Positions 62 through 20,200 of a stretch of DNA of 20,587 nt are shown here, piece by piece. A program made the translations under genes and the position numbers. Positions within the stretch are counted from its first letter, which is position 1, and each line of letters opens with the position of its first letter. Source of the stretch: a virus; IMG/VR virus record IMGVR_UViG_3300010370_005335, positions 1 through 20,587 of that record; one strand, 5' to 3'. The notes below the pieces were generated by a model. It was not told the origin of the DNA. It did no database searches and worked only from the letters and a program-made list of their open reading frames with translations.

Positions 62-619
62 ATGGATATTTCAGTATCGTCTGAAAAATCTATCGGAATG
101 TTTTTGTCAGGAGGTATGGATAGCGCATTGCTTCTATACCTCCTGGCACAACAATCCAATAAAATAAAAATTTTCACGATACCTAAGTATGATGGTGCTG
201 AACATTATGTTGGACCCATAGTGACTTGGATAAACAATAAATTGGGTTGCAATTTACCAGAACCTATATTGATAGGTAACCCAAAAGCCAATCATAAAAT
301 GCAAGTAAATACAGGACTGGTTAAGGTGTATCATTCCTGTGATGTATTTTATTTTGCCGGAAACTCATATCCAGAGGATGTATTACCCAACGGTCCTAGC
401 AGAACAGAAAGAAAAAATCCCAAAGAAAAACAACCATTTTTTCATTTATATAAAACAGACATTGTGAAAATGTATGTTCAATATGATTTAATGGAATTGT
501 TAGGGTTAACACATACCTGTACTGAACAATCTATAGGACGTTGTAATGAATGTTGGCAATGTAAAGAAAGAGCATGGGCCTTTAAAGAATGTGGTTTACA
601 GGACTTGACAAATACATAA
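62..619 (+). CDS. QueC-like PP-loop ATPase (adenine nucleotide alpha hydrolase fold)
   Basis: 185 aa. Residues 16-21 are SGGMDS, the PP-loop that binds ATP pyrophosphate in this fold. C153, C161, C164 and C167 followed by R170 and AF (173-174) reproduce the C-terminal zinc-finger signature of QueC, the 7-cyano-7-deazaguanine (preQ0) synthase; K131 sits in a K-x-[DE]-I-V segment as in QueC. Known for the family: ATP-dependent conversion of 7-carboxy-7-deazaguanine to preQ0, used for tRNA queuosine or, in some phages, 7-deazaguanine DNA. The protein is shorter than typical QueC (about 220-230 aa), and no queD, queE, folE or DNA transglycosylase gene is in the window, so preQ0 synthesis is not proven; another adenylating amidation is possible. 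The stop of the preceding gene lies 2 bp upstream, and no strong ribosome site is visible. Its last codons (599-613) double as the -35 region of the next promoter, giving the tail QDLTNT. Confidence 0.78.
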   Translation: MDISVSSEKSIGMFLSGGMDSALLLYLLAQQSNKIKIFTIPKYDGAEHYVGPIVTWINNKLGCNLPEPILIGNPKANHKMQVNTGLVKVYHSCDVFYFAGNSYPEDVLPNGPSRTERKNPKEKQPFFHLYKTDIVKMYVQYDLMELLGLTHTCTEQSIGRCNECWQCKERAWAFKECGLQDLTNT

Positions 620-4408: not shown

Positions 4409-5417
4409 ATTAGATTTTGATGATGTACTGATAGTTCCAAAATTTTCGGACATCACTTCACGCAATCAGGTTGAAGTGAACACAACAATGAAAGGTAGAT
4501 GGGGAGCCACAATTCAAGGTGTCCCCATCATTGCTGCCAACATGGATGGTGTAGGAACCTTCAGCATGCATCATTCATTGAAGAAATTTGATGCATTTAC
4601 TGCCATCACAAAACATCATACCTTGGCAGATTGGGTATCACAGAAGGATGTGAGCCATGCTTTCATCACGATTGGCATGAATGATGATGAATTGAAACAA
4701 GCTGTTGACATCATTGAGGTTTGGAAATCACGCGTTGACAACTTTGTTCCTAAAATTGTCATTGATGTGGCAAATGGATACATGAATCCCTTCTATGATT
4801 TCATTAAAAAGGTTCGTGATACTGTTCCTGATGCCTATATCATGGCAGGAACCGTGGTTACACCTGAGGCAGTGTATCGCACCATCACATGCGGAGCTGA
4901 TTTAGCCCGTGTTGGCATCGGAACAGGCGCTGTTTGTACAACTCGCCGAGTAGCTGGCGTGGGTTATCCTCAATTTTCCGCCTTGCAAGAGTGTGTTCCC
5001 GCCGCTGCAAGTGTCGGTGGTGGTGTGCAAAGTGATGGTGGATGTGTTTTTCCTGGAGATTTCTCAAAAGCACTGGCTGCTGGCGCACAAATGGTGATGG
5101 CCGGCAGTATTTTTGCCGGTCATGAGGAGTCGGAACAGGCAATTCATGACGGAAAAGTGACATTTTATGGGATGAGTAGTCGTGCAGCCCAAGAAAAACA
5201 CAATCAAGTGAAAAAATATCGAGCATCCGAAGGCAGAGTTGTTCAACTCCCGTATAAGGGGTTGGTGGAACACACAATTTCTGATATTTTAGGGGGAATT
5301 CGTTCAACTTGTGCCTATATAGGTGCACTAAATATTTCTGAGATGCCAAACAAGGCAACTTTCATTCAAGTTAACAATCAATTAAATCGTTCTCTTGAGC
5401 GTTACACCATTCAATGA
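4398..5417 (+). CDS. guaC: GMP reductase (IMPDH/GMPR family)
   Basis: 339 aa, the length of stand-alone GMP reductases, without the CBS pair usual in IMP dehydrogenases. The TIM barrel is recognisable end to end: FDDVLIVPKFSDITSR near the start, PIIAANMDGVGTF, DVANGY, IMAGTVVTPE, and the catalytic loop GIGTGAVCTTR with nucleophile C180. SDGGCVFPGDFSKALAAGA follows, then the GMPR-type FYGMSSRAAQEK, YRASEGR and VEHTISDILGGIRSTC blocks. The enzyme reduces GMP to IMP with NADPH, releasing ammonia. In a phage it could rebalance purines taken from host RNA or DNA, or feed a modification pathway; being translationally coupled between two radical SAM genes suggests the second but does not prove it. 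GGGV replaces the more usual residues before SDGG; all catalytic positions I can judge are kept. AAAGGTGAG (4379-4387) may serve as ribosome site. Confidence 0.93.
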   Translation: MTFKLDFDDVLIVPKFSDITSRNQVEVNTTMKGRWGATIQGVPIIAANMDGVGTFSMHHSLKKFDAFTAITKHHTLADWVSQKDVSHAFITIGMNDDELKQAVDIIEVWKSRVDNFVPKIVIDVANGYMNPFYDFIKKVRDTVPDAYIMAGTVVTPEAVYRTITCGADLARVGIGTGAVCTTRRVAGVGYPQFSALQECVPAAASVGGGVQSDGGCVFPGDFSKALAAGAQMVMAGSIFAGHEESEQAIHDGKVTFYGMSSRAAQEKHNQVKKYRASEGRVVQLPYKGLVEHTISDILGGIRSTCAYIGALNISEMPNKATFIQVNNQLNRSLERYTIQ

Positions 5418-5424
5418 TTAAGGT

Positions 5425-7677
5425 ATGACTGAACCTATTGATTTTAATCTCACAAAACTTGCACATGAGGCAAAAGCTCGTAAGGAACTAGAGCCAGACT
5501 TGGCAGATGCCAAGCACGTTGCCATGTTTGAGGCTATCAAGCCGTTTGCCAAGCCATTTGAACAACACAATGTCACTCCTGTGTACATTGATTACAAAAC
5601 ACGCAACACAAAACTGGCTTTAGTGTTGTGTCCTGAGTGGGCACCACATTTTCCTCCCTACAACTTGGCATTGTTGAGTGGTATTGCCAAGACGGCAGGA
5701 TATGAAACCAAGATTTATGACTTGAATATGCGAGCTTACAAGCAATTCAAGGAAGATTGGTGGCCCAATCAAAAGCTTCCTTTCCGTTTATGGGATCCTA
5801 GTGCCAGCTGGCATTGGTTACAAGAAACTTACATGCAAGACATTCATCCTGTGTTGGAGCCTTTGTTGCTTCAAGCAGTAGATGAAATTTTAGAATTTAA
5901 CCCACAAGTTGTTGGGTTCACCATGTACTACATTAGTGCAGAACCCACCAAGTGGATGTGTCAAGAAATCAAGCGCCGTCGGCCTGACATTAAAATTGCC
6001 ATTGGTGGTAGTAACACCAAGAAAAGTTGGTTTGAAATAGAACCTTACTACGATTACGTGGTGGCAGGTGAAGGAGAAGCCGCCATTCTTGATATTCTAC
6101 AAGAAGTTGAGGATGGTGTTGTTCGTACCGAGCCTTTCTATCTTGTACAACCAGAAGGTGAGCGTATCAACATCAATAATCTTCCCATGCCTGATTATGA
6201 AAGCATTGATTTCTCAGAATATGAGATTCCTAATGGTGTGAATAGTCAATTCAGTCGTGGATGCACGGCAAAGTGTACCTTCTGTGAAGAAACACATTTC
6301 TGGAAGTATCGCCAACGTAGTGCCGTGGATGCCATCAAGGAAATTGAATGGTTGTATTACAACAAAGGCACAGATGTCATCTGGTTCATTGATAGTTTAG
6401 TGAATGGCAATCTCAAGGAACTTCGTGCCTTCTGTAAGGCAGTAGAAGCCAAGGGATTGAACATTCATTGGACTGGATATTGTCGGTGTGATGGAAGAAT
6501 GGATTTAGAATACTACAAGGATTTAAAGGCTGGTGGATGCATCATGTTGAACTATGGCATTGAATCTGGAAGTCAAAAGGTGTTAGATGCCATGGATAAG
6601 CGTGTGACCATTGAAGAAATGGAAGCCAACTTCCGTCATGGAAAAGAAGTGGGTATCTATGCCGCTACCAACTGGATTGTGGGATTCCCTAATGAAGATT
6701 TCCAAGATTTTGCTGATAGCATGACCTTCTTGTGGAGAATGCGAAACAACAATATCAATAACGTGGGTGCTGGTGTGGGCATGGCAGTGGGTCCAGAAAC
6801 CATTGTGGGACAGAACACACATAAGTTCAATGTCAGTGCTCACAAATATCAAGGACATTGGATCACTCAGGATTTCACAAAGGGTGGCACGCACGTGATG
6901 CATCGTGTGAAAAACTTCCACACCTTCTTGGATTTCATGCGTGGATGTACAGATGTACCTTTCGGATATCCCATTCGTATGAATTTGGAAAAGGAACATT
7001 ATGAAATCACATTACACAATCCCAACACCATCAAGGAAATTGATTACGAAGATTTTGATTATCGTATCATCAAGCCTAACTTGAATCCTTTTGCTGATAA
7101 TCTTGTGAACGAGATGTGGCCTTTCTTCCGTATGTTATGGAAGACACGTGGTGGATATAATGCCACGGTGAAGTTTAATCCTGAGATTGATATCAAGGAA
7201 TTTGGATGGCAATTTGGTCCCGGAATGTACAATGCTGTGTATAAGTTCTCCATTACAGATGATGGTAAGTGGATAGCAGACTTTGACATGAAGTTTGAAC
7301 AAGTTGACAATCATTTAGACACCCGTGAACGTCCAGATGAACTACAAGCTAATGGACAACCTGGTAGAAAGGGTCCTTTCTACGCACAAGACTACAGCAG
7401 AATGATGTCTAACACAGCGTCACGGGCCAGAAAACTTGCCAAGCCACATTGGGGTGATTCTGGACGGTCTGATACCGATTTTGGTATTCTATTGTCAGAA
7501 GAAGAATATCTCAACAAGACCATTGACTTTTCCTTTGAATATCATTATGTTGATACAGGGGATTGGGGACGTGCTGAGGACATCAAGCCCAGAGAAAAGA
7601 AACAAGAACCAGAAAAAGTAAAGAATAAAATTTTACCAGTCATAGGAGCCATAAATGTTCAGAACATTAATGGATAA
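5425..7677 (+). CDS. B12-binding-type radical SAM enzyme with long C-terminal extension
   Basis: 750 aa. After about 60 leader residues a cobalamin-binding-like domain begins (LALVLCPEWAPHFPPYNLAL 64-83, VVGFTMYYIS, IKIAIGGSNTKKSW, VAGEGEAAI). The radical SAM core has C280-TAK-C284-TF-C287, followed by GGCIMLNYGIESGSQKVLDAM and NWIVGFPNEDFQDF, both typical of the B12 radical SAM superfamily. The last roughly 250 residues (about 500-750) are an aromatic-rich domain I do not recognise, ending in a Lys/Glu-rich linker. It differs clearly from the B12-type protein at 2489, so the two are probably not redundant. AAGG touches the start codon, so initiation may depend on coupling with guaC, which ends 7 bp upstream. 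Substrate unknown. Confidence 0.85.
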   Translation: MTEPIDFNLTKLAHEAKARKELEPDLADAKHVAMFEAIKPFAKPFEQHNVTPVYIDYKTRNTKLALVLCPEWAPHFPPYNLALLSGIAKTAGYETKIYDLNMRAYKQFKEDWWPNQKLPFRLWDPSASWHWLQETYMQDIHPVLEPLLLQAVDEILEFNPQVVGFTMYYISAEPTKWMCQEIKRRRPDIKIAIGGSNTKKSWFEIEPYYDYVVAGEGEAAILDILQEVEDGVVRTEPFYLVQPEGERININNLPMPDYESIDFSEYEIPNGVNSQFSRGCTAKCTFCEETHFWKYRQRSAVDAIKEIEWLYYNKGTDVIWFIDSLVNGNLKELRAFCKAVEAKGLNIHWTGYCRCDGRMDLEYYKDLKAGGCIMLNYGIESGSQKVLDAMDKRVTIEEMEANFRHGKEVGIYAATNWIVGFPNEDFQDFADSMTFLWRMRNNNINNVGAGVGMAVGPETIVGQNTHKFNVSAHKYQGHWITQDFTKGGTHVMHRVKNFHTFLDFMRGCTDVPFGYPIRMNLEKEHYEITLHNPNTIKEIDYEDFDYRIIKPNLNPFADNLVNEMWPFFRMLWKTRGGYNATVKFNPEIDIKEFGWQFGPGMYNAVYKFSITDDGKWIADFDMKFEQVDNHLDTRERPDELQANGQPGRKGPFYAQDYSRMMSNTASRARKLAKPHWGDSGRSDTDFGILLSEEEYLNKTIDFSFEYHYVDTGDWGRAEDIKPREKKQEPEKVKNKILPVIGAINVQNING

Positions 7678-7773: not shown

Positions 7774-8550
7774 ATGTACTCGCTTCCGTTAGATAGTTTC
7801 CAGATACCAGCCCAACGTTTCATAGATTGGATGAATCTTATCAGAAAAACTGAGGATCCTTCCCTTCGTTATGATTACATGGAGGCATTTTGGGAAAGTC
7901 AAATTGTAAGCAAACAATGGATGATTAAAGAATTCAAGCGAGTTATCGTGGATTATGTGGATTCTTGTGTCCCAGACTGGAAGGCTAAACCTGTTCTTCC
8001 AGGAAGCTTTGCATATGTTTTTGGAGGATGGCACGGTTTAGCTGCCATGTTTCTTGTTGACAACATCCCAGAATTGAATTTGGTATACAGCATTGATAAA
8101 AATGCCAAGAATGAATTGATGGGTGAACATCTGTGTCATCATGATAAGCGAATTGCATTTCAAACGTATGAAATGGAAGAGTTTCCTCTACGTGCATACA
8201 ATCCTATTAACACAGTTCTAGTTGTAAATACATCCACTGAACATATCACACAAGAACAATATGATAAGTGGATTAAATCTGTTCCTCCCAGAACATGGGT
8301 GATATTACAGGGAAATAATTATAATACGTTAGATGAGCATGTTCGCCCAGCTAAAAGTTTAGAACACTTTCTTGAAATGAATCCACTGGACATGGTATGG
8401 TATTCTGGTGAGTTGGATTGTAAACAATTTACACGCTACATGGTGATGGGATACAACATGGAAAAATATAATGGGTTGGATGATGAAATGTCCACCATGT
8501 TGTCTACAAAAATACATACTATGATTACGAGAACCTCTTATGAGTTATGA
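7774..8550 (+). CDS. Putative class I SAM-dependent methyltransferase-like protein
   Basis: 258 aa. The centre carries a Rossmann-type nucleotide-binding start: AYVFGGWHGLAAMFL (80-94) as a glycine-rich motif I, and about 18 residues later VYSIDKNA (104-111), where the acidic residue would hold the ribose of SAM. VLVVNTSTEHI (motif IV position) follows. Such a pattern fits a small-molecule or glycan methyltransferase; the N-terminal 75 residues are helical and unlike any family I can name. No DNA methylase catalytic motif (DPPY or PC) is present, so restriction-type DNA methylation is unlikely. It overlaps the following radical SAM gene by 11 bp. Confidence 0.55.
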   Translation: MYSLPLDSFQIPAQRFIDWMNLIRKTEDPSLRYDYMEAFWESQIVSKQWMIKEFKRVIVDYVDSCVPDWKAKPVLPGSFAYVFGGWHGLAAMFLVDNIPELNLVYSIDKNAKNELMGEHLCHHDKRIAFQTYEMEEFPLRAYNPINTVLVVNTSTEHITQEQYDKWIKSVPPRTWVILQGNNYNTLDEHVRPAKSLEHFLEMNPLDMVWYSGELDCKQFTRYMVMGYNMEKYNGLDDEMSTMLSTKIHTMITRTSYEL

Positions 8551-9958
8551 TTTAGAGCGTATTAAAAAAATACTGCCTATCACAGACAATTTAAGTCCCA
8601 CCTTCTGTATGGCAAAATGGCACCATGTCACCATCTATCTTCAAACAGGTGAGACACATAGTTGCTATCATCCGGCACCTCATAAAATTCCGGTTGAGGA
8701 GTTAAAGGATAATCCCTCAGCCTTACATAACACACCACAGAAGAAACAAGAACGCTTGGCGATGCTCAAAGGAGAAAAGCCTAGTGGGTGTCAGTATTGT
8801 TGGAACATTGAGGCACTAGGCCCTGATTACGTATCGGATCGCCATATTCGTACCGCCTCCATCTACACTGATGAAAGATTTGAAGAAATCCGTCAGAGTC
8901 CTTGGGACATGAACATCAATCCTGAATACATTGAGTTAAGTTTCGGTAATGAATGTAACTTCAAGTGTGGGTATTGTCATCCCAAGGCTTCGTCACGCTA
9001 TTATCGTGAAATTGAGCAACATGGTCCATACACCATGGTGAAGAATCATAGAAATGACATTGATTGGTTCACCATGTATGAAGAAGAAACCAATCCCTAC
9101 GTAGAAGCCTGGTGGCGTTGGTGGCCTGAGGTTCGTAAGACATTGAACATTCTTCGTTTGACAGGTGGCGAGCCTTTGATGCATAAGAGCACCTGGCGGT
9201 TGTTGGATTCATTGAAAGATGACCCAATGCCGAAGTTGGAATTGAACATCAATAGCAACTTAGGTGGGAAAAACGAGTGGGTGGTTCGTTTGTCTGAAAA
9301 TGTCAAGCATCTATTAGACACTAACTCCATCAAGAAGTTTAAATTGTTCAGTAGCATTGATACCTGGGGTCCACGTGCCGAATATATTCGTACTGGATTG
9401 AACTTGGAAACGTGGGAAAACAATCTTGACACCTATGTTCGCATGACTAACAGCCATGTAACATTCATGATTACATTCAACATCTTGTCTGTAACCACAT
9501 TCAAGAGTTTGTTGGAAAAGATTCTTGAATGGCGTGTTCGATACAATGATGTGATTCCCGATGACCCCATTCGGCCATTGGAACGGAAGATTCGTTTTGA
9601 TACTCCATATCTCAAGGAACCTCTTCAATATGATATGAACATTCTTCCTAAGGATGAATTCATGCCATATATGTACGACACACTTAGTTACATGGAAGCC
9701 AACACCGATGAAAATGATGTCACAAAGTTTTCTGAATTGGAACTGGAACGTTTCAAGCGTGTTGTGAAGTACATGGAAACAACTGTGTATCCTGTGGACA
9801 AGTTGATAGAAGGTACCAATGATTTCTATAATTGGTTCACAGAATATGATAAACGTAGAGATACCAACTTCCTTGAAACATTCCCAGAATATAAAAACTT
9901 CTTCCTGAGTGGAAAGGATGCCTCAAACGCCGGCCTTATCAAACTTATTAAAAACTAA
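8540..9958 (+). CDS. Radical SAM protein with N-terminal twitch-like cysteine domain (variant)
   Basis: 472 aa. The radical SAM core has C139-NFK-C143-GY-C146 preceded by ELSFGNE, then LRLTGGEPLMH and the SSIDTWGPRAEYIRTG strand. In front of it lies a cysteine domain with C23, C42, C84 and C87, including W27 and G37. The spacing nearly matches that of three paralogues in the island, but the second Cys of their CC pair is Tyr43 here. Four cysteines are enough to hold an auxiliary [4Fe-4S] cluster. An insertion of about 45 residues rich in Trp (ETNPYVEAWWRWWPEV) separates the core motif from GGEP. The N-terminal auxiliary domain matches the group annotated in databases as twitch domain-containing radical SAM protein; substrates are unknown. 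Confidence 0.85.
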   Translation: MSYDLERIKKILPITDNLSPTFCMAKWHHVTIYLQTGETHSCYHPAPHKIPVEELKDNPSALHNTPQKKQERLAMLKGEKPSGCQYCWNIEALGPDYVSDRHIRTASIYTDERFEEIRQSPWDMNINPEYIELSFGNECNFKCGYCHPKASSRYYREIEQHGPYTMVKNHRNDIDWFTMYEEETNPYVEAWWRWWPEVRKTLNILRLTGGEPLMHKSTWRLLDSLKDDPMPKLELNINSNLGGKNEWVVRLSENVKHLLDTNSIKKFKLFSSIDTWGPRAEYIRTGLNLETWENNLDTYVRMTNSHVTFMITFNILSVTTFKSLLEKILEWRVRYNDVIPDDPIRPLERKIRFDTPYLKEPLQYDMNILPKDEFMPYMYDTLSYMEANTDENDVTKFSELELERFKRVVKYMETTVYPVDKLIEGTNDFYNWFTEYDKRRDTNFLETFPEYKNFFLSGKDASNAGLIKLIKN

Positions 9959-11165
9959 TAAAACATTTTGCATGTTTCCCTGGATTCATATGTATGTGAA
10001 TACAGATGGGGAGGCGTATCCCTGCTGTACCACAAAATATGAAAACCCTGTTGGTAATGTTAGAAATAACACATTAGTTGAATTATGGAACAATGATAAG
10101 ATGAAAGAAGTTAGAAAAAAACTTCTGGCGGGAGAATATGTTGAGGGATGTTCCAACTGTTACAAGCATGAATCCACCGGGTCTGGTGGTTTTTCATTTA
10201 GAAATTTTGCCAATAATGAATTTGGACATCATTTCGATTTAGTGAATGAAACCATGGAAGATGGATATCTACCAGGAATGAACTTGAAGTATTTTGATGT
10301 TCGTTTCAGTAATCTTTGTAACTTCAAGTGTAGAACGTGCGGAGATATGTTTTCTTCTACGTGGGCGGCCGAATCCTATAAGCAAGGGTATGGAGAAATC
10401 AATGGATTGATGCATGCCTCGAATGGTGATCCTTCTTTGTTAGAACAATTCAAACCACATCTTGGTAATTTGGAGATGTTGTATTTTGCTGGCGGTGAAC
10501 CATTGATTACACCAGAACATTATGAAATTCTTGAATATCTCATTGACAATGACAGCACAGATGTTACATTACGATATAACACAAATTGTAGCAGATTAGA
10601 TTTCAAGGACAAGAGTGTTATTGATTTATGGAACAAGTTCAAGAAAGTGGAAGTGTACGGCAGTTTAGATAGTTTCGGGACACGTGCCGAGTATATGAGA
10701 AACGGTACTGTTTGGAACAACATTCTTAACAATTTGAAGCGTGTGAAAGATAATTGTCCTTCCGTATCCATTTCATTTAATTGTGTTGTGGGTGTGTTCA
10801 ATGTTCTCACCATCACTGAATTTTTAAATCATCTTCATGATGAAGGATTGATTAGTTGGGATTCAACCACGTGTAGTTTCTATAAACTCATCAATCCAGA
10901 TTATTACAATCTTAATAATCTGCTTACAAAAGAGATGAAGGCTGAAGCAAAATGGAAAATCAAGGCATGGTTGGATTCTCATCCTGATGGTCCCATTCGA
11001 ACTGGATTAACAGACATCTATCATTTCATCCAAGAAGATGTTGATCCACAGATTCAATGGCAAAAGAAGTTTAAAGAATTTACACAACACTTTGATAACA
11101 TTCGTGAAGAAAATTTAGTATCATCTTTCCCAGAACTCAAGGATTGGTATGAAGGTATTGAATAA
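9918..11165 (+). CDS. Radical SAM protein with N-terminal twitch-like cysteine domain
   Basis: 415 aa from the ATG at 9918 (an in-frame GTG lies at 9909; neither has a well-spaced ribosome site, so the start is uncertain). The N-terminal domain has C18, C36-C37, C78 and C81 with PWIH after the first Cys and G31 in the turn, as in SPASM/twitch auxiliary-cluster domains. The radical SAM core has C134-NFK-C138-RT-C141 after DVRFSNL, then YFAGGEPLITPEHY, and VYGSLDSFGTRAEYMRNG at the strand that usually contacts SAM. It is a close paralogue of the genes at 11149 and 16790 (shared R-F-S/G-N-L-C-N and GPA/GDM-x-SS-W blocks). It starts 41 bp inside the preceding gene. Confidence 0.87.
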   Translation: MPQTPALSNLLKTNKTFCMFPWIHMYVNTDGEAYPCCTTKYENPVGNVRNNTLVELWNNDKMKEVRKKLLAGEYVEGCSNCYKHESTGSGGFSFRNFANNEFGHHFDLVNETMEDGYLPGMNLKYFDVRFSNLCNFKCRTCGDMFSSTWAAESYKQGYGEINGLMHASNGDPSLLEQFKPHLGNLEMLYFAGGEPLITPEHYEILEYLIDNDSTDVTLRYNTNCSRLDFKDKSVIDLWNKFKKVEVYGSLDSFGTRAEYMRNGTVWNNILNNLKRVKDNCPSVSISFNCVVGVFNVLTITEFLNHLHDEGLISWDSTTCSFYKLINPDYYNLNNLLTKEMKAEAKWKIKAWLDSHPDGPIRTGLTDIYHFIQEDVDPQIQWQKKFKEFTQHFDNIREENLVSSFPELKDWYEGIE

Positions 11166-12411
11166 CATAGAAGAATCTAAAGGATTTTGTACTTTACCGT
11201 GGATTCATATGCACGCTTGGCCTGACAAGCGTGTTCTTCCATGTTGTATAGCGGATTCCAATATGCCAGTGTCAACCACAGAAGGTGACACGATACTAGA
11301 CATCATGAATAGTCCGCGATTCAAAGAAATTCGTTTAGAGATGCTTCAAGACAAGAAAATTCCTGAATGTCATCGCTGTTATTCACTGGAAGATTATGGT
11401 GTATGGTCATTACGCCAATCCAACAATCGGAGACGTTTTGAATCTGTTCGTGATTTAGTGGAATCCACAAATGAAGATGGATCCATTGATACTTTTAAAA
11501 TGAAGTATCTAGACATTCGATTCAGTAATCTATGTAACATGAAATGTCGCACGTGTGGTCCAGCTTGTAGTAGTAGATGGGCCGAAGAATTCTCACAAAA
11601 GCATGGAAAAGAACATTTGAAAGTGTTCAACATGGAGAAAATTGTTACATCAAACAATGAAAATGATGAATTATTAAAGAAACTTCGTCCTCATTTATTA
11701 GATGTAGAAGAAGTATATTTTGCTGGCGGCGAAGCCATGATTACCAGTGAACATTATGATATTCTAGATTACTGGTTGGAAAACAATCACACCAATGTAG
11801 AATTAACATACACTACAAACTTTCTAACACTTCGTTATAAAAATAAAAATGCTTTAGATTATTGGAACAAGTTCAAGGATGTTCGCGTTTGGGCTAGTTT
11901 AGATGGAATGGGTAAAGTGTTGGAAGTAATGCGACATGGCGCAGTGTGGGATGAAATTCACGACAACATTTTACGAGTAAAGGCTGAAGCACCCCATGTG
12001 AAGTTCGGTATCACACCTACCATTTCTATTTGGAACGTGTTTCACTTTCCGAAATTTCATAGATTCCTATTGGACAACAAACTGATAGGATTGGAAGATT
12101 TACGGTTAAACATCTTAACATATCCTTGGTATATGGGTTTGGATATTTTGCCAAAACACATGGCAGAACAAGCTGAAGATTTATGGTGGGAACATTACCA
12201 TTACTTAAAGTTTAAACATCCCCATGATGAAGAACATCTTGGACAATTGCGCTCGGTTTGCACAGCTTTGAGTAATTCCAAGGGAAACATTGATGGAGTG
12301 CGAGAATTTTTCAAAATCAATGATGATATTAGTCCAGGTCGCAATGAAAACATTTTTGAACATATACCAGGTATGGTGGATTTAGAGAAATGGCTGAAAA
12401 ACAACTCTTAA
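11149..12411 (+). CDS. Radical SAM protein with N-terminal twitch-like cysteine domain (GGEA variant)
   Basis: 420 aa. N-terminal cysteines C14, C32-C33, C74 and C77 have the same spacing as in the paralogues; the core motif is C129-NMK-C133-RT-C136 followed by GPACSSRW. The SAM-binding GGEP motif reads GGEA (YFAGGEAMIT), and the RAEY segment of the paralogues is replaced by KVLEVMRHG. The enzyme may therefore have drifted in substrate, or it may work as a non-catalytic partner, although the three cluster cysteines are intact. The start codon overlaps the preceding stop by 17 bp and has no clear ribosome site, suggesting coupled translation. Confidence 0.86.
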   Translation: MKVLNNIEESKGFCTLPWIHMHAWPDKRVLPCCIADSNMPVSTTEGDTILDIMNSPRFKEIRLEMLQDKKIPECHRCYSLEDYGVWSLRQSNNRRRFESVRDLVESTNEDGSIDTFKMKYLDIRFSNLCNMKCRTCGPACSSRWAEEFSQKHGKEHLKVFNMEKIVTSNNENDELLKKLRPHLLDVEEVYFAGGEAMITSEHYDILDYWLENNHTNVELTYTTNFLTLRYKNKNALDYWNKFKDVRVWASLDGMGKVLEVMRHGAVWDEIHDNILRVKAEAPHVKFGITPTISIWNVFHFPKFHRFLLDNKLIGLEDLRLNILTYPWYMGLDILPKHMAEQAEDLWWEHYHYLKFKHPHDEEHLGQLRSVCTALSNSKGNIDGVREFFKINDDISPGRNENIFEHIPGMVDLEKWLKNNS

Positions 12412-13370
12412 GCATCTATCCGAAAAAGAAATATCTTGCCATCACCTGGCAAGTCAGTGATAATTGTAATTTTCGGTGTCCTTATTGTAATGAAGGCAAT
12501 TGGGGAGGTCATCATAAGAATGATGATAACACCGAGACTTATGTGAAGAATGTAAAACAAATCATTGACAAATATTTGGATCAAGGATACGAAGCATTTA
12601 AAATTTATTTCAGTGGTGGTGAACCCACCATCTGGAAAAATCTCATTCCTGTTGCAGAATTTTTCAAGGAATATGCTCCTAACAACACAGTCGCCATCAA
12701 TACAAATTTAAGTCGTGCCACGGAATGGTGGGAACAACATTATCATATCTTTGATGATGTTGTAGCATCATTTCACATTGAACATGCTAATCAAGAAAGA
12801 TATTTCAACAATAGTATGCTGTTATGTGACAAGATTAACTATTGCTGCAACAAAATGTTGATGCATGATGAACGATTCTGGGAAGTTGTGGAGTTTGGCG
12901 AGATGTTGAAAGAAAAGCTTCCTGCCTATACCATTGAGTGGACACCTTTGTTTGATGAAATGACAGGAAATGCCAAGCCTTGGGAATATCAAGATGTCAA
13001 GAAAACTGAATGGTTGAATCAACATCAAAACTTGGAAATGAAACATAGTCCCAACAAACCCTGGAAGGATTCTCCCGCTGTTTCCATTGCTCGATGGGAG
13101 GATGGTACGGATACATTTGTGAACAGTAATGAAATCATCTTGAAGCGACAAAACTTCTTCACAGGATGGGAGTGTGATATTGGTGATGCCGTGTTTATCA
13201 ATCCACGTGGCATGGTATCCATGGCGAGCTGTGGAATATCAGAAAGTGTGGGACATATTTTACATGACATAAGTAATATCAAACCTCAAACCATCACATG
13301 CACAAAATATCATTGTGTTTGTGGTACAGACATCATTATACCTAAACGTTCTCATGGATACCAATTTTAA
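12390..13370 (+). CDS. Radical SAM protein with C-terminal cysteine-rich region
   Basis: 326 aa. The core motif comes almost at the N-terminus (C26-NFR-C30-PY-C33), followed by YFSGGEPTIWKNL (69-81) and NTNLSR. This is the canonical order, with the auxiliary region at the C-terminus: a Cys in GWECDIG, another in MASCGISESVGHI after the VFINPRG turn, and a final cluster TCTKYHCVCG. The G-x-C...G-x-V-x-x-x-x-C...C pattern resembles a SPASM/twitch domain. It differs from the neighbouring N-terminal-twitch proteins and may act in series with them. It begins 22 bp inside the preceding gene, without a strong ribosome site. Confidence 0.84.
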   Translation: MAEKQLLSIYPKKKYLAITWQVSDNCNFRCPYCNEGNWGGHHKNDDNTETYVKNVKQIIDKYLDQGYEAFKIYFSGGEPTIWKNLIPVAEFFKEYAPNNTVAINTNLSRATEWWEQHYHIFDDVVASFHIEHANQERYFNNSMLLCDKINYCCNKMLMHDERFWEVVEFGEMLKEKLPAYTIEWTPLFDEMTGNAKPWEYQDVKKTEWLNQHQNLEMKHSPNKPWKDSPAVSIARWEDGTDTFVNSNEIILKRQNFFTGWECDIGDAVFINPRGMVSMASCGISESVGHILHDISNIKPQTITCTKYHCVCGTDIIIPKRSHGYQF

Positions 13371-14250
13371 TCCTTCATATAAACCTTCTGTGTTGTTTGA
13401 TTATGCTAGTTACTATAATCAAAAGGGGAAACAAAAGTTTCACGGGTCATATGACCAACAAAGATGGGAGAAGTTTTCAGAAAAAACCAAAGCATTAGGA
13501 ATTGAACCTTCTGTTTGGCCATATTACGAAATTGAAGATGATTTCTATTCTTTTAATTCTCTAGGATACAGAACCTATGAATTTTCTGAGCTAAAAGAAG
13601 GTCAGTTCGATTTAGCCTTAGGATGTTCATATGTTGAAGGCGTTGGGTTACGCCAACATGAAACATGGTTGCACCACTATGAGAAACTTTCAGGCGTGAA
13701 GTTAGTAAATTTAGGTAAAGGTGGTGCTTCAAATACAGCAACTAAATTTAATTTAGTAGCTTGGCTTCTTGGAAAATTTCCGAAACCCAGAAAAATCATA
13801 GTGTTATGGACAGAACCGAGTCGAGATACATTTGTCCGAGAAAGTGGTTCATATGTTAGTTTAAATCCTGGGTGGAACAAAATATGGGAAATTTTTAACT
13901 ATAGCGATGAGGTGATAAATAGTTTGTATCAAACATCATTGAATCACAACTCTATATGGAGTAATAAATTCGTTGATGTATATACAACTGTGAACTTGAT
14001 TGCCAAATCATCTAATATTGAGTTGTATAACTTTTTCCCGGATTTTTTCTGGAACAAAGCATTCACTGATATATTAGAAGAACACACTAAATTTTCTGGT
14101 ACCATTGTTGACTTCAATGTTCCCGGAGGTTGGAAAAAATTTGGTGACGGAGTAAACATTTATCCTGCAGCTGACGGTGTACATCATGGATGGCAACATC
14201 AACTTCCAGTTGCTACACAAATTTACAAGGTGACGCATGAAAAAAATTAA
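13354..14250 (+). CDS. SGNH/GDSL-hydrolase-like protein
   Basis: 298 aa from the ATG at 13354, which overlaps the previous stop by 17 bp; a longer frame from 13315 has no supporting signal. ALGCSYVEGVG (88-98) stands where GDSL-family enzymes have the G-D-S nucleophile block, with Cys in place of Asp. VNLGKGGASN (118-127) fits the block II/III glycine and asparagine region, and D274-GV-H277 fits the terminal catalytic D-x-x-H. Family members are esterases, acetyl-transferring or deacylating enzymes acting on carbohydrates or lipids. No signal peptide is visible, so action in the host cytoplasm is assumed. Roughly 85 N-terminal residues precede the fold and are unassigned. Confidence 0.7.
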   Translation: MDTNFNPSYKPSVLFDYASYYNQKGKQKFHGSYDQQRWEKFSEKTKALGIEPSVWPYYEIEDDFYSFNSLGYRTYEFSELKEGQFDLALGCSYVEGVGLRQHETWLHHYEKLSGVKLVNLGKGGASNTATKFNLVAWLLGKFPKPRKIIVLWTEPSRDTFVRESGSYVSLNPGWNKIWEIFNYSDEVINSLYQTSLNHNSIWSNKFVDVYTTVNLIAKSSNIELYNFFPDFFWNKAFTDILEEHTKFSGTIVDFNVPGGWKKFGDGVNIYPAADGVHHGWQHQLPVATQIYKVTHEKN

Positions 14251-15559
14251 AGTGGTGTATGAGTGGATTAGTCCTCGGGGCCCATTATCCAACAATACAG
14301 TAGCTGACTTATATCATATTGCCAGTGGTTTACATGGTGTTCATGTGGATGCCACAAAAGGTGGGGGTGCCTATCTTTGGACACAAATATTCCAATATCA
14401 CCCAGATTTGTTTGAATTAAGTTCAGCATCTGCCATCAAAGATGGAGATTTCTTCATCTATGATTATCAACTACATCACAAGTGGCCGTACTTGGATTTC
14501 TTTGCCAAGGGAGCTCCAAGTGGGTTGTTGGAAAGTATTCAAATGTCAGGCAACATCATGCACAACATCCGATTCCAGAATGGATATTTGTTCATGGACA
14601 TGGCATTGGAAGCCTGGGTCAGTCCCACCACGTTCCGTGCCATGCACCGGTATTTTGATAACTGGCAAATTCCCACCAACAAAGTGATTTACCAAACCGG
14701 TGCGTCTAATGCTGCCGAGTTGTATGACAAGTTCTGTCGTGAGAACAATATTCCAGACAATCTTCGAATCAAGGTGTTTTCCTGGGATTCACAAGAATGG
14801 ATCTGGTCTGTTCGATATGCCAATGAAGAATATGATAACAAGAAACACATTGATTTCATTGAAAAAACTTTCATGTGTTTAAATTACAGATATCGGCCAC
14901 ATCGTCTTGATATGTGTATGATGTTTCATAAGTATGACTTGTTGAAAGACAGTTTTTTCACGCTTCCCGCTAGAAATCCTGAAGTGTACCAGGATGCTTT
15001 TCGTGTGAACATCAATCCTGCGTTCATTGCCAAAATAGGCATGACCGAACAAGAATTAAATGAGCTGGAAGCAAAACTTCCATTACGCATTGATGATTTA
15101 CCTTCTAGTCATGCCAATCACTTCAGAATGACACATGATGACCAAAGAGAATTAAAGGATTATTACACTAAAAGTTTAGTGTCCATCATTACTGAAACAT
15201 TGTGTTATGATGAAGCTGTCACGGAAACAGAAAAGACACTGAAAGCCATTGCACACAAGCAACCTTTCATCATTGCTGCCGCTCCCAAGGCATTGCATTA
15301 TCTACGATTACATGGATATCAAACATTCTCACGATGGTGGGATGAAAGTTACGACAACATTGAAGACCATTATGATAGAATGATTGCAATAGGCAATGTT
15401 TGCAAAGACATACATAGTTGGGACAGAAATAAACGAATACAATTTCTTGAAGAAAGTAAAGGTGTGTTACAACACAATTACACCAAGATGAAAAATGTTC
15501 GTACAAGTAGAATTCCAGAAATGTGGTATCACTTATTTGATTTAGCACAGGGAGTATAA
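14237..15559 (+). CDS. Unrecognised protein, possibly glycosyltransferase-like
   Basis: 440 aa. A C-terminal block at about residues 319-385 reads ETLCYDEAVTETEKTLKAI, then KQPFIIAAAPKALHYLR and GYQTFSRWWDESYD. From memory, a TEK-T/W-K-(A/P)-I ... PFI ... LR..G(F/Y).TF ... W.ESYD pattern recurs in marine phage and bacterial surface-polysaccharide proteins, and resembles the donor-binding end of some glycosyltransferases (E of TEK near the nucleotide). The first 300 residues show no motif I can name. It has a good ribosome site (AAGGTGA, 14227-14233) despite a 14-bp overlap with the SGNH gene. Its place beside a sugar-nucleotide dehydrogenase fits a glycan role, but this is inference and the call is weak. 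Confidence 0.45.
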   Translation: MKKIKVVYEWISPRGPLSNNTVADLYHIASGLHGVHVDATKGGGAYLWTQIFQYHPDLFELSSASAIKDGDFFIYDYQLHHKWPYLDFFAKGAPSGLLESIQMSGNIMHNIRFQNGYLFMDMALEAWVSPTTFRAMHRYFDNWQIPTNKVIYQTGASNAAELYDKFCRENNIPDNLRIKVFSWDSQEWIWSVRYANEEYDNKKHIDFIEKTFMCLNYRYRPHRLDMCMMFHKYDLLKDSFFTLPARNPEVYQDAFRVNINPAFIAKIGMTEQELNELEAKLPLRIDDLPSSHANHFRMTHDDQRELKDYYTKSLVSIITETLCYDEAVTETEKTLKAIAHKQPFIIAAAPKALHYLRLHGYQTFSRWWDESYDNIEDHYDRMIAIGNVCKDIHSWDRNKRIQFLEESKGVLQHNYTKMKNVRTSRIPEMWYHLFDLAQGV

Positions 15560-15563
15560 TGAA

Positions 15564-16802
15564 ATGAAAGTTGCTATGATTGGTTGTGGTAAACTAGGCG
15601 CACCATGTGCCAATGAAATGAAATATGCTGGTCATGATGTAGTGGGATATGATGTTGTGAAATCCGACCTCCCAGATTTTCCAATGAAGGACACCATTCA
15701 AGAAGCGGTCCAAGACCGTGAATTGATTTTCATTGCCGTACCTACTCCGCATGACAAGTCCTATGGTGGTGAAACTCCCACAGCTCATCTAGAGCCTAAA
15801 GATTTTGATTATTCCATTGTAGTGAACATTTTAAAAGAATTGAACAACCATTGTAACAAGAATCAACTTGTGGTGCTTATCAGCACTGTTTTACCTGGAA
15901 CTGTTCGTCGAGAATTTGTACAACACGCCACAAATTATCGTTTCATTTACAATCCCTATTTGATTGCCATGGGATCCGTGAATTGGGACATGGTGAATCC
16001 TGAAATGGTTATCATTGGTACCGAAGATGGCTCTTTGACAGGTGATGCTCAAATTGTCATTGACTTCTACAAGACCATGATGAAGAATGACCCAAGATAC
16101 ATTGTGGGAACTTGGGATGAAGCTGAGTGCATCAAGATTTTCTACAACACCTTCATTTCTGCCAAGATTGGGTTGGTGAACATGATTCAAGATGTGGCTG
16201 AGGCTTCTGGTAACATCAATGTGGATGTGGTGACCAAGGCGTTGGCTGAGAGTGATAGAAGAATCATGGGACCCGCCTATATGAGAGCAGGCATGGGTGA
16301 TGCTGGCGCTTGTCATCCCAGAGACAACATTGCACTTCGGTGGTTGTCAAAAGAATTGAATTTGGGATATGATTTGTTTGGTGCCATCATGGAAAGTCGA
16401 GAACTTCAAGCCAAGAAAGTGGCAGAATCTTTGATTGCATATGCATCTGAATATGATATGCCTATTTACATTCATGGCAAGGCATACAAGCCAGGTGTGG
16501 AATACACCGAGGGTAGTTATAGTTTATTGATTGGACATTATGTTCAACAACTAGGGGGAAGTGTGTCTTACATTGACCCATTAACTAATGATATGCATGA
16601 TGAAGTGCATGGTGTGATTTTAATGGCTCATCATGCTCCCACAACATATAGTCATAGTCGTGTCATTGGTAGTCAAGAACAAAAGTTCTACACCAAGATA
16701 CTCCCTGGTTCCATTATCATTGATATTTGGAGAACATTACACACCTCGGATATTCCAGATTGTAAGATAGTACATTACGGGAATACAAGATGTTCAAAAT
16801 AA
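15564..16802 (+). CDS. UDP-glucose/GDP-mannose dehydrogenase family protein (variant active site)
   Basis: 412 aa, the usual family length. The family oxidises nucleotide sugars to uronic acids with 2 NAD+. The N-terminus has the NAD fold (G7-C-G9-KL-G12), then FIAVPTPHDK and ISTVLPGT. The central domain has ECIKIFYNTFISAKIGLVN, with the helix lysine and asparagine expected near the substrate. C250 in GDAGACHPRDN is at the catalytic cysteine position of the family's GGSCFPKD loop. Deviations: GGS is replaced by DAGA and the lysine of PKD by Arg, and the C-terminal K-x-x-x-x-D-x-R-x-S motif reads KPGVEYTEGSYS, losing the usual Asp/Arg pair. An altered substrate is therefore likely. GGAG (15551-15554) precedes the start. 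The gene links the glycosyltransferase-like gene and a twitch radical SAM gene. Confidence 0.8.
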   Translation: MKVAMIGCGKLGAPCANEMKYAGHDVVGYDVVKSDLPDFPMKDTIQEAVQDRELIFIAVPTPHDKSYGGETPTAHLEPKDFDYSIVVNILKELNNHCNKNQLVVLISTVLPGTVRREFVQHATNYRFIYNPYLIAMGSVNWDMVNPEMVIIGTEDGSLTGDAQIVIDFYKTMMKNDPRYIVGTWDEAECIKIFYNTFISAKIGLVNMIQDVAEASGNINVDVVTKALAESDRRIMGPAYMRAGMGDAGACHPRDNIALRWLSKELNLGYDLFGAIMESRELQAKKVAESLIAYASEYDMPIYIHGKAYKPGVEYTEGSYSLLIGHYVQQLGGSVSYIDPLTNDMHDEVHGVILMAHHAPTTYSHSRVIGSQEQKFYTKILPGSIIIDIWRTLHTSDIPDCKIVHYGNTRCSK

Positions 16803-18052
16803 TACAACCCAAAGTAGAAAATCTTTCTGAGAAAAAAGAATTTCTGTTAAACAACAGTAAAACTTTTTGCATGTACCCATGGATAAGTTTACACTTGAAT
16901 CCTATCGGGCAACCAGCACCTTGTTGTATTTCCAATGTTCGTTCTGATTTTGGAAGCACCGCCAGTCAAACATTAAAAGAATCTGTGAATCATCCCAACA
17001 TGAAACGCCTTCGGGTGGATTTGTTGAATGAAATTAAAAATGACACTTGTGTTGCTTGTTACAATCATGAAAGTGAAAACATCAAGAGTGCCAGAATAGA
17101 TATTAATGAAAGATACGAGAAATTTTTTGATACAGATGTTGTGCCCACGAAACCAGATGGACAACTTGATGATTTCAAAATGAGATATTATGATATCCGT
17201 TTTGGTAATTTGTGTAATTTCAAGTGCAGAACATGCGGCCCTGCGTTCAGTTCACAATGGGAAGCCGAGATGGTGAAAAATGGAACCATGGGTCCCATTC
17301 CTTTCAAAACACCTCCCAGCATTCTACCAGAAGTGTTGGAACATATTCCCAACATGATGGAGGCATATTTTGCTGGTGGTGAACCATTAATTAGTGAACA
17401 ACATTATGTAATTCTTGAGGACATGATTCGTCAAGGAAGAACAGATATTCAACTTCGATACAACAGCAACATCAGCAACTTGAAATATAAAGACAAGGAT
17501 TTGTTGGATTTGTGGAAGCATTTCACAAAGCCTGTGGAAATTTATGCCAGTGTGGATCATTGTGGAGAAAGAGCTGAGTATATTCGACATGGTACTGATT
17601 GGGGTGTAATTGAAAATAACATTGCAAAACTTAAAACCACCCCTAACGTGAAACTTGCCATGAACACGGTATTCAGCGTGTTTAATGCGTTAACCATCAC
17701 AGACTTTTATAGCTATTTGTATAGTAAAGGATGGTTAACAAATAGCTTTCAATTATATGCCATGAGTTCTCCTTCACAATTGGCATCCAATGTGTTGCCT
17801 GTGACAAAGAAGGAACAAGCCTCAGAAAAAATTAAAAGCTATTCCACCTACTTACAAAAAATAAGACATAACTATACACCTGAGAGTGGATTTCTATATT
17901 GGTTACATTCTGTGGATAGATGGATGTTCATGAAGCATGATTGGGAAGAAAAAAAGGAAGATTTCAGAAATACTATACGAGCCATTGATGATGTTCGGGG
18001 AGAATCATTTGTGAAAGTGTTCCCAGAACTAGCGGACATGATGGAGGATTGA
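16790..18052 (+). CDS. Radical SAM protein with N-terminal twitch-like cysteine domain
   Basis: 420 aa. The N-terminal domain has C27, C45-C46, C87 and C90 with PWIS after the first Cys and G40 in the turn. The core motif is C142-NFK-C146-RT-C149 followed by GPAFSSQW. AYFAGGEPLISEQHY and YASVDHCGERAEYIRHG complete the SAM-binding strands. It is a close paralogue of the proteins at 9918 and 11149 yet is separated from them by four other genes, so the cluster either grew by duplication and insertion or drew related genes from different sources. The start overlaps the dehydrogenase stop by 13 bp with only a weak ribosome site. Confidence 0.87.
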   Translation: MFKIIQPKVENLSEKKEFLLNNSKTFCMYPWISLHLNPIGQPAPCCISNVRSDFGSTASQTLKESVNHPNMKRLRVDLLNEIKNDTCVACYNHESENIKSARIDINERYEKFFDTDVVPTKPDGQLDDFKMRYYDIRFGNLCNFKCRTCGPAFSSQWEAEMVKNGTMGPIPFKTPPSILPEVLEHIPNMMEAYFAGGEPLISEQHYVILEDMIRQGRTDIQLRYNSNISNLKYKDKDLLDLWKHFTKPVEIYASVDHCGERAEYIRHGTDWGVIENNIAKLKTTPNVKLAMNTVFSVFNALTITDFYSYLYSKGWLTNSFQLYAMSSPSQLASNVLPVTKKEQASEKIKSYSTYLQKIRHNYTPESGFLYWLHSVDRWMFMKHDWEEKKEDFRNTIRAIDDVRGESFVKVFPELADMMED

Positions 18053-18053
18053 T

Positions 18054-19511
18054 ATGTTGATTTGGGGAGTTTCTGCCAATAGTCATGACGCCGCCATCAC
18101 GGTGGTGAAAGATAAAGAAATCTTGTTTGCCTCACAATCAGAAAGATATTCTGGTGTGAAGAATGATGCACATTTAAACTTTGAAATCATTGATGATGCC
18201 AAGCGTTATGGTGAGCCTGATGTCATTGTCTGGTATGAAAAATCCTGGTTGAAATCACTTCGGCAAATTCGAGCTGGCCAAGGGTTCAATTTCTTCAGTA
18301 ATGAACCTGATGTCTATCTACGGCAATACAACATTGATACTCCCGTCACCTCTGTGGGACATCACCATAGTCATGCCGCAGGAGGATATTACACTTCCCC
18401 GTATCAAGAAGCTGCTGTGTTGGTGATTGACGCTATAGGTGAGTTTGACACCACCAGTATTTGGCATGGCAAAGGAACAAAATTAGAAAAGAAGTTTTCT
18501 CTTGGTTATCCTCATAGTTTGGGATTATGGTATTCTGCCATGACGCAACGTGTGGGATTGAAACCCAATGAAGAAGAATACATCTTGATGGGTATGGCAG
18601 CATATGGTGACCCATTGAAATACACCGCCATGATATTGGAAGATTTCTTTGATAGTAGACATATGTTGAAGTTGAATCATAATCTTCATCGAGGATGCAT
18701 GTGGTGGCGTCCAGAATTAAACACAGAACAAGACAAATATGATATTGCTGCCGCCACACAATTCATCTATGAAATGTGTTTTCATGATTTGTTGGATGAA
18801 GCCAAGAAGTTGACAGGTAGTAAGAATCTGGTGTTGGGTGGGGGATGTGCTTTGAATTGTGTTGCCAACAGCATCGCTTTTCAATATTTCGATAATGTTT
18901 GGATTATGCCGAACCCAGGAGATGCAGGCAATAGTCTAGGTGCCATTGCCGCTTACCAACAAGAATTTTTAAACTGGCATGGTCCTTATCTTGGCAAAGA
19001 CATGGGTATGAAATATCCTACTGAACAATTGATTGATACATTACAAACAGAACAAATTGCAGGTGTGGCATTTGGTCGTGCTGAATTTGGACCTAGAGCA
19101 TTAGGACATAGAAGTTTATTGGCAGACCCACGTGGAGATGACATCAAAGATAAGGTGAACGCCATCAAGAAGCGTCAGAAGTTCCGTCCTTTCGCTCCCG
19201 CCATTCTTGCTGAACATGCTCATGAATATTTCCATATGCCAACCACAGAAAGTCCGTATATGCAATACACGGCTTTGTGTAAGCGTCCATTAGAGTTTCC
19301 TGCCATCATTCATGCCGATGGAACATCACGGGTGCAAACTGTATCCAGAACTGATTCACCGTACTTCTATGAATTTCTTCAAGAATGGTATCGTGAAACA
19401 GGATGTCCCATGGTGTTGAACACCAGTTTAAACATCAAAGGTAAACCCATGGTGAATGATAGAAAGGATGCCGATGACTTTCAAACAAAATACAATGTAA
19501 AGGTGTTATGA
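18054..19511 (+). CDS. NodU/CmcH/TobZ-type carbamoyltransferase
   Basis: 485 aa. The N-terminal domain of this family makes carbamoyl-adenylate from carbamoyl phosphate and ATP and the same polypeptide transfers the carbamoyl group to a sugar or antibiotic hydroxyl. Seen: WGVSANSHDAAITVV (4-18), the iron-binding HHHSHA (103-108), MGMAAYGDP, LGGGCALNC (261-269), PGDAGNSLGA, and the C-terminal signature FGRAEFGPRALGHRSLL (340-356) with RPFAPAIL (378-385) and NTSLN (456-460). It is somewhat shorter than the typical 540-600 aa but both domains are present. A strong ribosome site GGAGG (18043-18047) precedes the start. Its stop overlaps the next start by 4 bp (ATGA), tying it to the SGNH protein that follows. 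The acceptor is unknown; a sugar made by the neighbouring genes is the simplest guess. Confidence 0.92.
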   Translation: MLIWGVSANSHDAAITVVKDKEILFASQSERYSGVKNDAHLNFEIIDDAKRYGEPDVIVWYEKSWLKSLRQIRAGQGFNFFSNEPDVYLRQYNIDTPVTSVGHHHSHAAGGYYTSPYQEAAVLVIDAIGEFDTTSIWHGKGTKLEKKFSLGYPHSLGLWYSAMTQRVGLKPNEEEYILMGMAAYGDPLKYTAMILEDFFDSRHMLKLNHNLHRGCMWWRPELNTEQDKYDIAAATQFIYEMCFHDLLDEAKKLTGSKNLVLGGGCALNCVANSIAFQYFDNVWIMPNPGDAGNSLGAIAAYQQEFLNWHGPYLGKDMGMKYPTEQLIDTLQTEQIAGVAFGRAEFGPRALGHRSLLADPRGDDIKDKVNAIKKRQKFRPFAPAILAEHAHEYFHMPTTESPYMQYTALCKRPLEFPAIIHADGTSRVQTVSRTDSPYFYEFLQEWYRETGCPMVLNTSLNIKGKPMVNDRKDADDFQTKYNVKVL

Positions 19512-20200
19512 GTACGTTACTAATCACTTTGGGTGATAGTTGGACTCAAGGTGTAGGATGTTATGAGCCTGAACTACGAGAAAAATTGAACAAAGGTGAA
19601 GCCACGATGCAAGACTTGTTTCTTGGATCCTTTGAACGATTTTCCAAATGCTCTTGGGTGACGCATGCTGCTAGAATTTTAAATGCCGATGTGAAGAACA
19701 TTGCATTAGGTGGAGATGCCAACTCCGCATCAGCCAAACGATTGTTAATGGGACCGTATTCTGACTGTAAGAAGTATTATGATGATGTCATTGTGGTGTT
19801 TTTAATGACTGACCCTGCCCGGTTTTCTTTTTTTAACAACCATATAATACAATCTTTTCTTCCTGGCAATGGTTCCTTGTTCATGGAAGAATTTCTGAAA
19901 CATTGTTTAAGTGTACCAGAAGATGAAGCTCATGAGGCTTTGTTTTATCTAACTGTAGTGAAGAATTTTTGTGAGGCTAATGGATATCATTTCTATTATG
20001 GGTCTGCATTTTTCAAAGATGTACAGTTGCCTAAATCCTCATCGTTGCTACATCCAGAACATTCTGCCATAGTGGAAATGTTGCCTAACGAAGTGGATTA
20101 TATGTCAGATATTTGTTATCATCCCAATGAAAAGGGATATCATTTCATTGGTGAGTATATTGGTAATTACATAAAACAGGACTTGACAAATCCACAATAA
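19508..20200 (+). CDS. SGNH/GDSL-hydrolase-like protein
   Basis: 230 aa, the size of a minimal SGNH hydrolase. LGDSWTQG (8-15) is a classical block I with the nucleophile S11; NIALGGDANS (64-73) supplies the Gly/Asn oxyanion blocks; D201-ICY-H205 followed by PNEKGY supplies the catalytic acid and base. Unlike the protein at 13354 it keeps the full GDS triad start. It would hydrolyse or transfer an ester on a glycan or lipid; no signal peptide is seen. AAAGGTG (19499-19505) serves as ribosome site, in the context AGGTGTTATG that is identical to that at uvsE. The last codons overlap the ligase promoter, giving the tail QDLTNPQ. Confidence 0.8.
   Translation: MSTLLITLGDSWTQGVGCYEPELREKLNKGEATMQDLFLGSFERFSKCSWVTHAARILNADVKNIALGGDANSASAKRLLMGPYSDCKKYYDDVIVVFLMTDPARFSFFNNHIIQSFLPGNGSLFMEEFLKHCLSVPEDEAHEALFYLTVVKNFCEANGYHFYYGSAFFKDVQLPKSSSLLHPEHSAIVEMLPNEVDYMSDICYHPNEKGYHFIGEYIGNYIKQDLTNPQ

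Follow-up and report, generated by a model that had tools for sequence, protein, structure and literature searches.

Closest described enzymes and the phage locus

A useful point of comparison for the proteins described here is BtrN (2-deoxy-scyllo-inosamine dehydrogenase; PDB 4m7s, 4m7t), a radical S-adenosylmethionine (SAM) enzyme that oxidises an aminocyclitol and whose auxiliary [4Fe-4S] cluster is held by four cysteine ligands (PMC9012708). These cysteines, spaced C-x17-C-x44-C-x2-C, belong to a twitch domain that comes after the catalytic core; a canonical twitch runs cysteine, beta-hairpin, cysteine, helix, two cysteines (PMC6231123). The peptide-modifying SPASM/twitch enzymes CteB, SkfB and SuiB, as well as anSME, likewise combine a radical SAM core with a SPASM-type domain; their auxiliary domain is C-terminal and often holds two clusters, and maturases of ribosomally synthesised and post-translationally modified peptides (RiPPs) have an N-terminal RiPP recognition element (RRE) (PMC6231123). 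Here we analyse a linear IMG/VR virus record of 20,587 bases (IMGVR_UViG_3300010370_005335; in what follows, the window), in which four genes, named here by their first positions 8540, 9909, 11149 and 16790, encode radical SAM proteins that carry the twitch domain in front of the core. Among cultured large vibriophages, the MoaA/NifB/PqqE-family protein of KVP40 and the radical SAM proteins of Vibrio phage K566, some of them clustered, are distant homologues of these four; they differ in being only 22-24% identical, with most matches partial in coverage.

Domain order and conserved cysteines

By profile comparison, the four proteins are full-length members of the NCBIfam family NF033640, N_Twi_rSAM ("N-terminal twitch"), from which they do not differ: all score above the curated cut-off of 170 bits (Table 1), and the match covers profile positions 1 to 395-398 of 398, including the N-terminal domain. 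The reversed order pointed out in the original prediction is real but already catalogued, because the family is named for its N-terminal twitch domain. The feature noticed in the window was thus read correctly and belongs to a family already known; new, and more interesting, are the gene arrays and their context.

In each protein, C-x17/18-C-x41-C-x2-C precedes the CX3CX2C core motif. The exact form C-x17-CC-x40-C-x2-C lies at residues 21/39/40/81/84 of the 9909 protein, 14/32/33/74/77 of the 11149 protein and 27/45/46/87/90 of the 16790 protein, and the 8540 protein has C-x18-C-Y-x40-C-x2-C. Positions and spacings agree with the original prediction, which had set the second gene at 9918; this is an in-frame ATG three codons into a frame that opens with GTG at 9909. 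When the first 120 residues were shuffled, the pattern was recovered in at most 5e-5 of trials. Since the proteins are plain homologues over their length (pairwise identity 25-39% over most of it, BLAST E 1e-15 to 1e-89), common descent accounts for the shared spacing, which did not arise independently.

For conservation, family members were gathered by two scans of viral sequences and one of genomes, with two vibriophages added; they make up 580 distinct domain rows. Wherever a residue is aligned, the four cysteines of the N-terminal domain and the three of the core never vary, which bears out the expectation that a broad alignment would conserve them: the first cysteine is present in 578 rows, with two gaps, and the others in 580 of 580, as is the CX3CX2C motif that all four window proteins also carry. 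The second position of the "CC" is cysteine in 357 rows, tyrosine in 114 and histidine in 105, and we therefore rejected the pair as two ligands. The likely ligand set, judged from the alignment, is the first cysteine, the cysteine that closes the hairpin (GX4C where the glycine occurs) and the C-x2-C pair. In MAFFT columns it was C40, and not C39, that appeared near-invariant; raw sequences and the profile alignment showed this to come from how the x17/x18 difference had been aligned. Two subtypes follow the same difference, A with C-x17-CC (9909, 11149, 16790) and B with C-x18-C[H/Y] (8540). The exact C-x17-CC-x40-C-x2-C form is the exception among full-length viral members (49 of 378). The step from exact spacing to a rigid fold therefore fails, as spacing in the family is variable, and the case for a cluster rests on other evidence.

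That evidence comes from homology and from a structural model. Pfam SPASM (PF13186) matches the N-terminal ~65 residues of the 9909, 11149 and 16790 proteins over the whole model and above the gathering threshold; the 8540 protein has no Pfam SPASM match, yet keeps the four cysteines. The C-terminal ends of NCBIfam models for enzymes of ordinary domain order, StsB (320-394 of 466) and NirJ2 (239-302 of 326), match the N-terminal segment of the 9909 protein, so this segment is the usual SPASM/twitch-type domain placed in front. A profile of the N-terminal part alone, compared with the PDB, found one solved enzyme, BtrN (E 0.004; 6e-5 with the full-length profile), and the alignment falls on the C-terminal twitch of BtrN with the cysteines aligned. 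Both thus have a four-cysteine twitch, but the domain order is reversed and the proteins are only distantly related overall.

The AlphaFold2 model of the 9909 protein, made from an 82-sequence alignment, is of high quality (pLDDT 93.4, pTM 0.91) and runs C21, hairpin (27-30, 35-37), C39, helix 63-73, C81, C84, which is the canonical twitch order. The structural check proposed originally, on whether the cysteines converge on one cluster, is answered for this protein only through element order and homology. From the computed family membership, domain order, cysteine conservation, fold, neighbourhood and fusions we infer the type of auxiliary cluster: a four-cysteine [4Fe-4S] site in the N-terminal twitch domain is, on the model and the homology together, highly probable, as had been suggested. 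In Foldseek searches, the best match was the sactipeptide thioether-forming enzyme 5why, with anSME also high. BlsE (cytosylglucuronate decarboxylase), a radical SAM enzyme acting on a sugar acid, came second, with similarity in the core only and 18% identity; DesII, like BlsE an enzyme with a sugar substrate, is also among the PDB neighbours. Nearly the whole fold recurs in independent structure predictions for some twenty uncultured-phage proteins (TM ~0.7-0.9 by query length).

Paralogues and gene arrays

In a tree of 120 proteins, built by a quick method with SH-aLRT support only, each window protein groups with its positional counterpart in three related loci (L007, L010, L012; support 98-100), and the window paralogues stand far from one another. 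In a larger phage type there are about five such orthologue groups in near-constant order. By their sequences, the four proteins are old, separately kept paralogues in fixed order within one tight gene run. The original prediction had the four enzymes acting on related substrates in series; what we find is compatible with enzymes that take separate steps or attack separate positions of a single substrate, which makes a series plausible and falls short of proving it.

The arrays can be large. The median number of family genes per ~20-kb locus is five, and related phage contigs carry 4-19 such genes each, with 7-19 in contigs of 130-350 kb and 19 in one 320-kb record. In single contigs (G014, the record of L044; G018; G016; others) 7-19 such genes are scattered beyond the main cassette. 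A search limited to open-access literature found no paper describing phage radical SAM arrays. Family members are present, too, in Bdellovibrionota and Alphaproteobacteria contigs, and none scored above the cut-off in 14 well-known bacterial and archaeal genomes. Genes of the 8540 type group with Bdellovibrionota sequences, and in two Pseudobdellovibrio contigs (L101, L104) a gene like 7774, a possible methyltransferase, adjoins an 8540-type gene.

Neighbouring genes and fusions

Neighbours were counted in 113 distinct viral loci. Most frequent are a GT-B-type gene (98 loci), the GT2-like family f3 (96), f2 (79) and a carbamoyltransferase (74), followed by the tail-type genes tail6-type (70) and tail9-type, with a Peptidase_G2 domain (58); an amidinotransferase is present in 42, an NDP-sugar epimerase in 19 and a UDP-sugar dehydrogenase in 15. 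The carbamoyltransferase and amidinotransferase assignments rest on solved relatives and that of the window GT-B protein on its predicted structure; this protein (14237) had no match in a direct search of cultured phages, and f3 and f5 had no convincing solved relatives by sequence. The conserved f2 protein (~350 residues; L070:13680-14732) stands last in the radical SAM arrays of most large-phage loci.

In three loci (L127, L129, L131) the window-type set of N-terminal-twitch genes, a 12390-type radical SAM gene and the GT-B gene stands directly after the series tail9-tail6-f8-f5-f5-f7-f3, which ties the two cassette types together. A tail-fibre gene adjoins a window-type cassette in L114, and two glycosyltransferases of Pfam family PF11397 (GlcNAc) do so in L115; enzymes of the PF11397 type are best known for protein glycosylation. 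Fusions also occur: a carbamoyltransferase is joined to SPASM and radical SAM domains in a Bacteriovoracaceae contig (L087:1081-3885, minus strand), an N-terminal-twitch protein to a 12390-type enzyme in L090 and L091, and two N-terminal-twitch units flank a TPR segment in L086. The contigs L090 and L091, filed under metagenome-assembled genomes of Rickettsiales MED657, carry a phage tail-type gene series, as if phage DNA had been binned with bacteria by mistake.

A SAM synthetase gene, metK, scores above its cut-off in 8 loci, all of which also have a gene resembling methylthioadenosine/S-adenosylhomocysteine (MTA/SAH) nucleosidase, below cut-off. Radical SAM enzymes are reported to be inhibited by 5'-deoxyadenosine (PMC8102628), so the two genes may serve to provide SAM and remove the by-product.

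In a 119-kb contig related to the window (G002), T4-type baseplate wedge and hub genes lie within ~20-35 kb of the cassette, and for this reason we call the window lineage a T4-like myovirus.

Proposed role and alternatives

The reaction and substrate of the four enzymes we infer as follows. Each protein would be a radical SAM enzyme with two [4Fe-4S] clusters, of which the core cluster, bound by CX3CX2C, would cleave SAM to give a 5'-deoxyadenosyl radical that abstracts a hydrogen from the substrate. The auxiliary cluster of the N-terminal twitch, with four cysteines as in BtrN, would accept or return an electron, and this traffic would permit oxidation, epimerisation or elimination. Together with the GT-B glycosyltransferase, the UDP-sugar dehydrogenase and the carbamoyltransferase, and in relatives also with the amidinotransferase, the NDP-sugar epimerase and B12-type radical SAM enzymes, the four paralogues may modify a sugar or glycan stepwise, and this glycan would most likely be attached to, or destined for, the tail fibres of the phage itself. 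We give this explanation as a whole a probability of about 0.5. On its parts, we lean somewhat towards a sugar or glycan as the substrate, whereas the tail as its destination is tentative.

Several points weigh against this reading. The window stops short of any tail gene and lacks a complete sugar-nucleotide pathway; its neighbours 7774, 13315 and 19508, like f3, f5 and f2 elsewhere, are weakly assigned or not at all; literature searches gave no substrate, product, biochemistry or function for any NF033640 member; and sampling was one-sided, since only two window proteins had served as queries for the loci. The argument from neighbourhood is one of guilt by association.

Two other explanations are serious rivals, although we consider each of them unlikely. 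Should the same enzymes and the same sugar chemistry serve the host surface, the product would enter host lipopolysaccharide or capsule, where it might mask receptors or exclude superinfection; carbamoyltransferases, UDP-sugar dehydrogenases and NDP-sugar epimerases are common in surface polysaccharide pathways, and the presence of the family in bacterial contigs would fit. Repeated siting beside tail-fibre-type genes and PF11397-type glycosyltransferases speaks for another destination, and a flippase, a polymerase or an O-antigen ligase was not noticed. The enzymes might instead modify protein or peptide directly, through cross-links, epimerisation or RiPP-like maturation, the tail proteins next door being possible targets. 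Peptides are common substrates of SPASM/twitch enzymes, the best Foldseek match (5why) included, there are weak matches to peptide maturase models, and several paralogues per cassette would suit several sites; but Pfam scans of the four proteins found no RRE peptide-binding domain, and many glycan-type neighbours would be left unexplained.

We regard two further readings as very improbable. Hypermodification of viral DNA bases would suit the carbamoyltransferase of the phrog_1601 type, which is filed under phage auxiliary genes, and a QueC-like frame (window 62-619, named by eye), but the arrays sit with tail-type genes, and no enzyme for base hydroxymethylation or DNA modification was recognised beside them. 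Chemistry on small nucleotides or cofactors, of the viperin, MoaA or QueE kind, is suggested by a core that resembles viperin and MoaA; the resemblance does not extend beyond the core and stays far below the family cut-offs (for the viperin models NF038283 and TIGR04278 at most 31 bits, against 180 and 450), and the predicted auxiliary site has four cysteines as opposed to the three of MoaA (PMC9012708).

Unusually big arrays beside sugar-transfer and tail-fibre genes suggest that these phages make sugars of unusual chemistry, which they may put on their own tails. Carrying glycan modification further, we put forward, as a doubtful but specific possibility, that large T4-like phages run a radical-enzyme assembly line that would furnish the tail fibres of the virion with glycans resembling aminocyclitols or deoxysugars. 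It would comprise 4-19 N-terminal-twitch radical SAM genes in each contig, together with glycosyltransferases, carbamoyl- and amidinotransferases and sometimes a phage-encoded SAM synthetase and by-product nucleosidase. No such phage-made glycoconjugate is described in the papers searched. Arrays, fusions and neighbours give a named family a concrete candidate substrate class, glycans with carbamoyl and amidino transfer, and some phages devote several percent of their coding space to radical SAM enzymes. Were the product indeed on the tail, phages would have a new route to alter recognition or adsorption, and the arrays would be a source of new radical sugar enzymes.

Gene content of the window

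All genes from 7774 to 20200 lie on the plus strand and overlap or are at most 4 bases apart, and are therefore very probably co-transcribed (Table 1).

Table 1. Features of the window, with two genes from related loci in the last line
Feature	Position	Strand	Evidence
Gene run	7774-20200	+	one strand; overlaps or gaps <=4 bases
Radical SAM, B12-binding type	5425..7677	+	NCBIfam B12-rSAM families, below cut-offs; in 17/113 distinct loci
Possible methyltransferase	7774..8550	+	family member in L012 matches Methyltransf_25 weakly (E 0.0017, below cut-off); neighbourhood
N-terminal-twitch radical SAM protein, subtype B (C-x18-CY)	8540..9958	+	NF033640 327 bits; Cys 23/42/84/87 and 139/143/146
Twitch four-Cys segment, 8540 protein residues 23-87	8606..8800	+	cysteine positions; invariant alignment columns
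N-terminal-twitch radical SAM protein, subtype A (C-x17-CC)	9909..11165	+	NF033640 381 bits; Pfam SPASM E 5e-14, residues 21-85; AlphaFold2
Twitch four-Cys segment, 9909 protein residues 21-84	9969..10160	+	cysteine positions; BtrN profile match; model; invariance
N-terminal-twitch radical SAM protein, subtype A	11149..12411	+	NF033640 367 bits; Pfam SPASM residues 14-78
Twitch four-Cys segment, 11149 protein residues 14-77	11188..11379	+	cysteine positions; invariant columns
Radical SAM, usual order (core first)	12390..13370	+	Pfam Radical_SAM; C-terminal Cys 262/281/304/309/311
Possible SGNH/GDSL-type protein	13315..14250	+	weak: relative in L008 matches Lipase_GDSL, E 0.03
GT-B-fold protein, probable glycosyltransferase	14237..15559	+	AlphaFold2 pTM 0.82; Foldseek to trehalose-6-phosphate synthases, E 1e-5, prob 1.00
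UDP-sugar (UDP-glucose type) dehydrogenase	15564..16802	+	TIGR03026 162 bits, just below cut-off; Pfam UDPG_MGDP_dh domains; phrog_9148 E 4e-97
N-terminal-twitch radical SAM protein, subtype A	16790..18052	+	NF033640 358 bits; Pfam SPASM residues 27-90
Twitch four-Cys segment, 16790 protein residues 27-90	16868..17059	+	cysteine positions; invariant columns
O-carbamoyltransferase, NodU/TobZ/GdmN type	18054..19511	+	Pfam Carbam_trans_N and _C; PDB GdmN and TobZ, E 1e-39 to 1e-51
Possible SGNH/GDSL hydrolase	19508..20200	+	Pfam Lipase_GDSL_2 E 0.0017, below cut-off
metK and MTA/SAH-nucleosidase-like gene inside radical SAM arrays	L060:15454-16551 and L036:12431-12994		

The 12390 protein, in which the core comes first, keeps its five C-terminal cysteines in 18 of 18 relatives. 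We rejected its identification as QueE, given this conserved set and the fact that no QueE model came near its cut-off.

Upstream of the cassette, the window holds two radical SAM proteins of the B12-binding type (2489-4408 and 5425-7677), one of which is nearest to the KedN5 C-methyltransferase model (251 bits, below the cut-off of 700). The same upstream region contains, besides the QueC-like frame, an IMP dehydrogenase/GMP reductase-like gene (4398-5417, named by eye) and a gene for the UV-damage endonuclease UvsE (659-1570), which scores above its NCBIfam cut-off.

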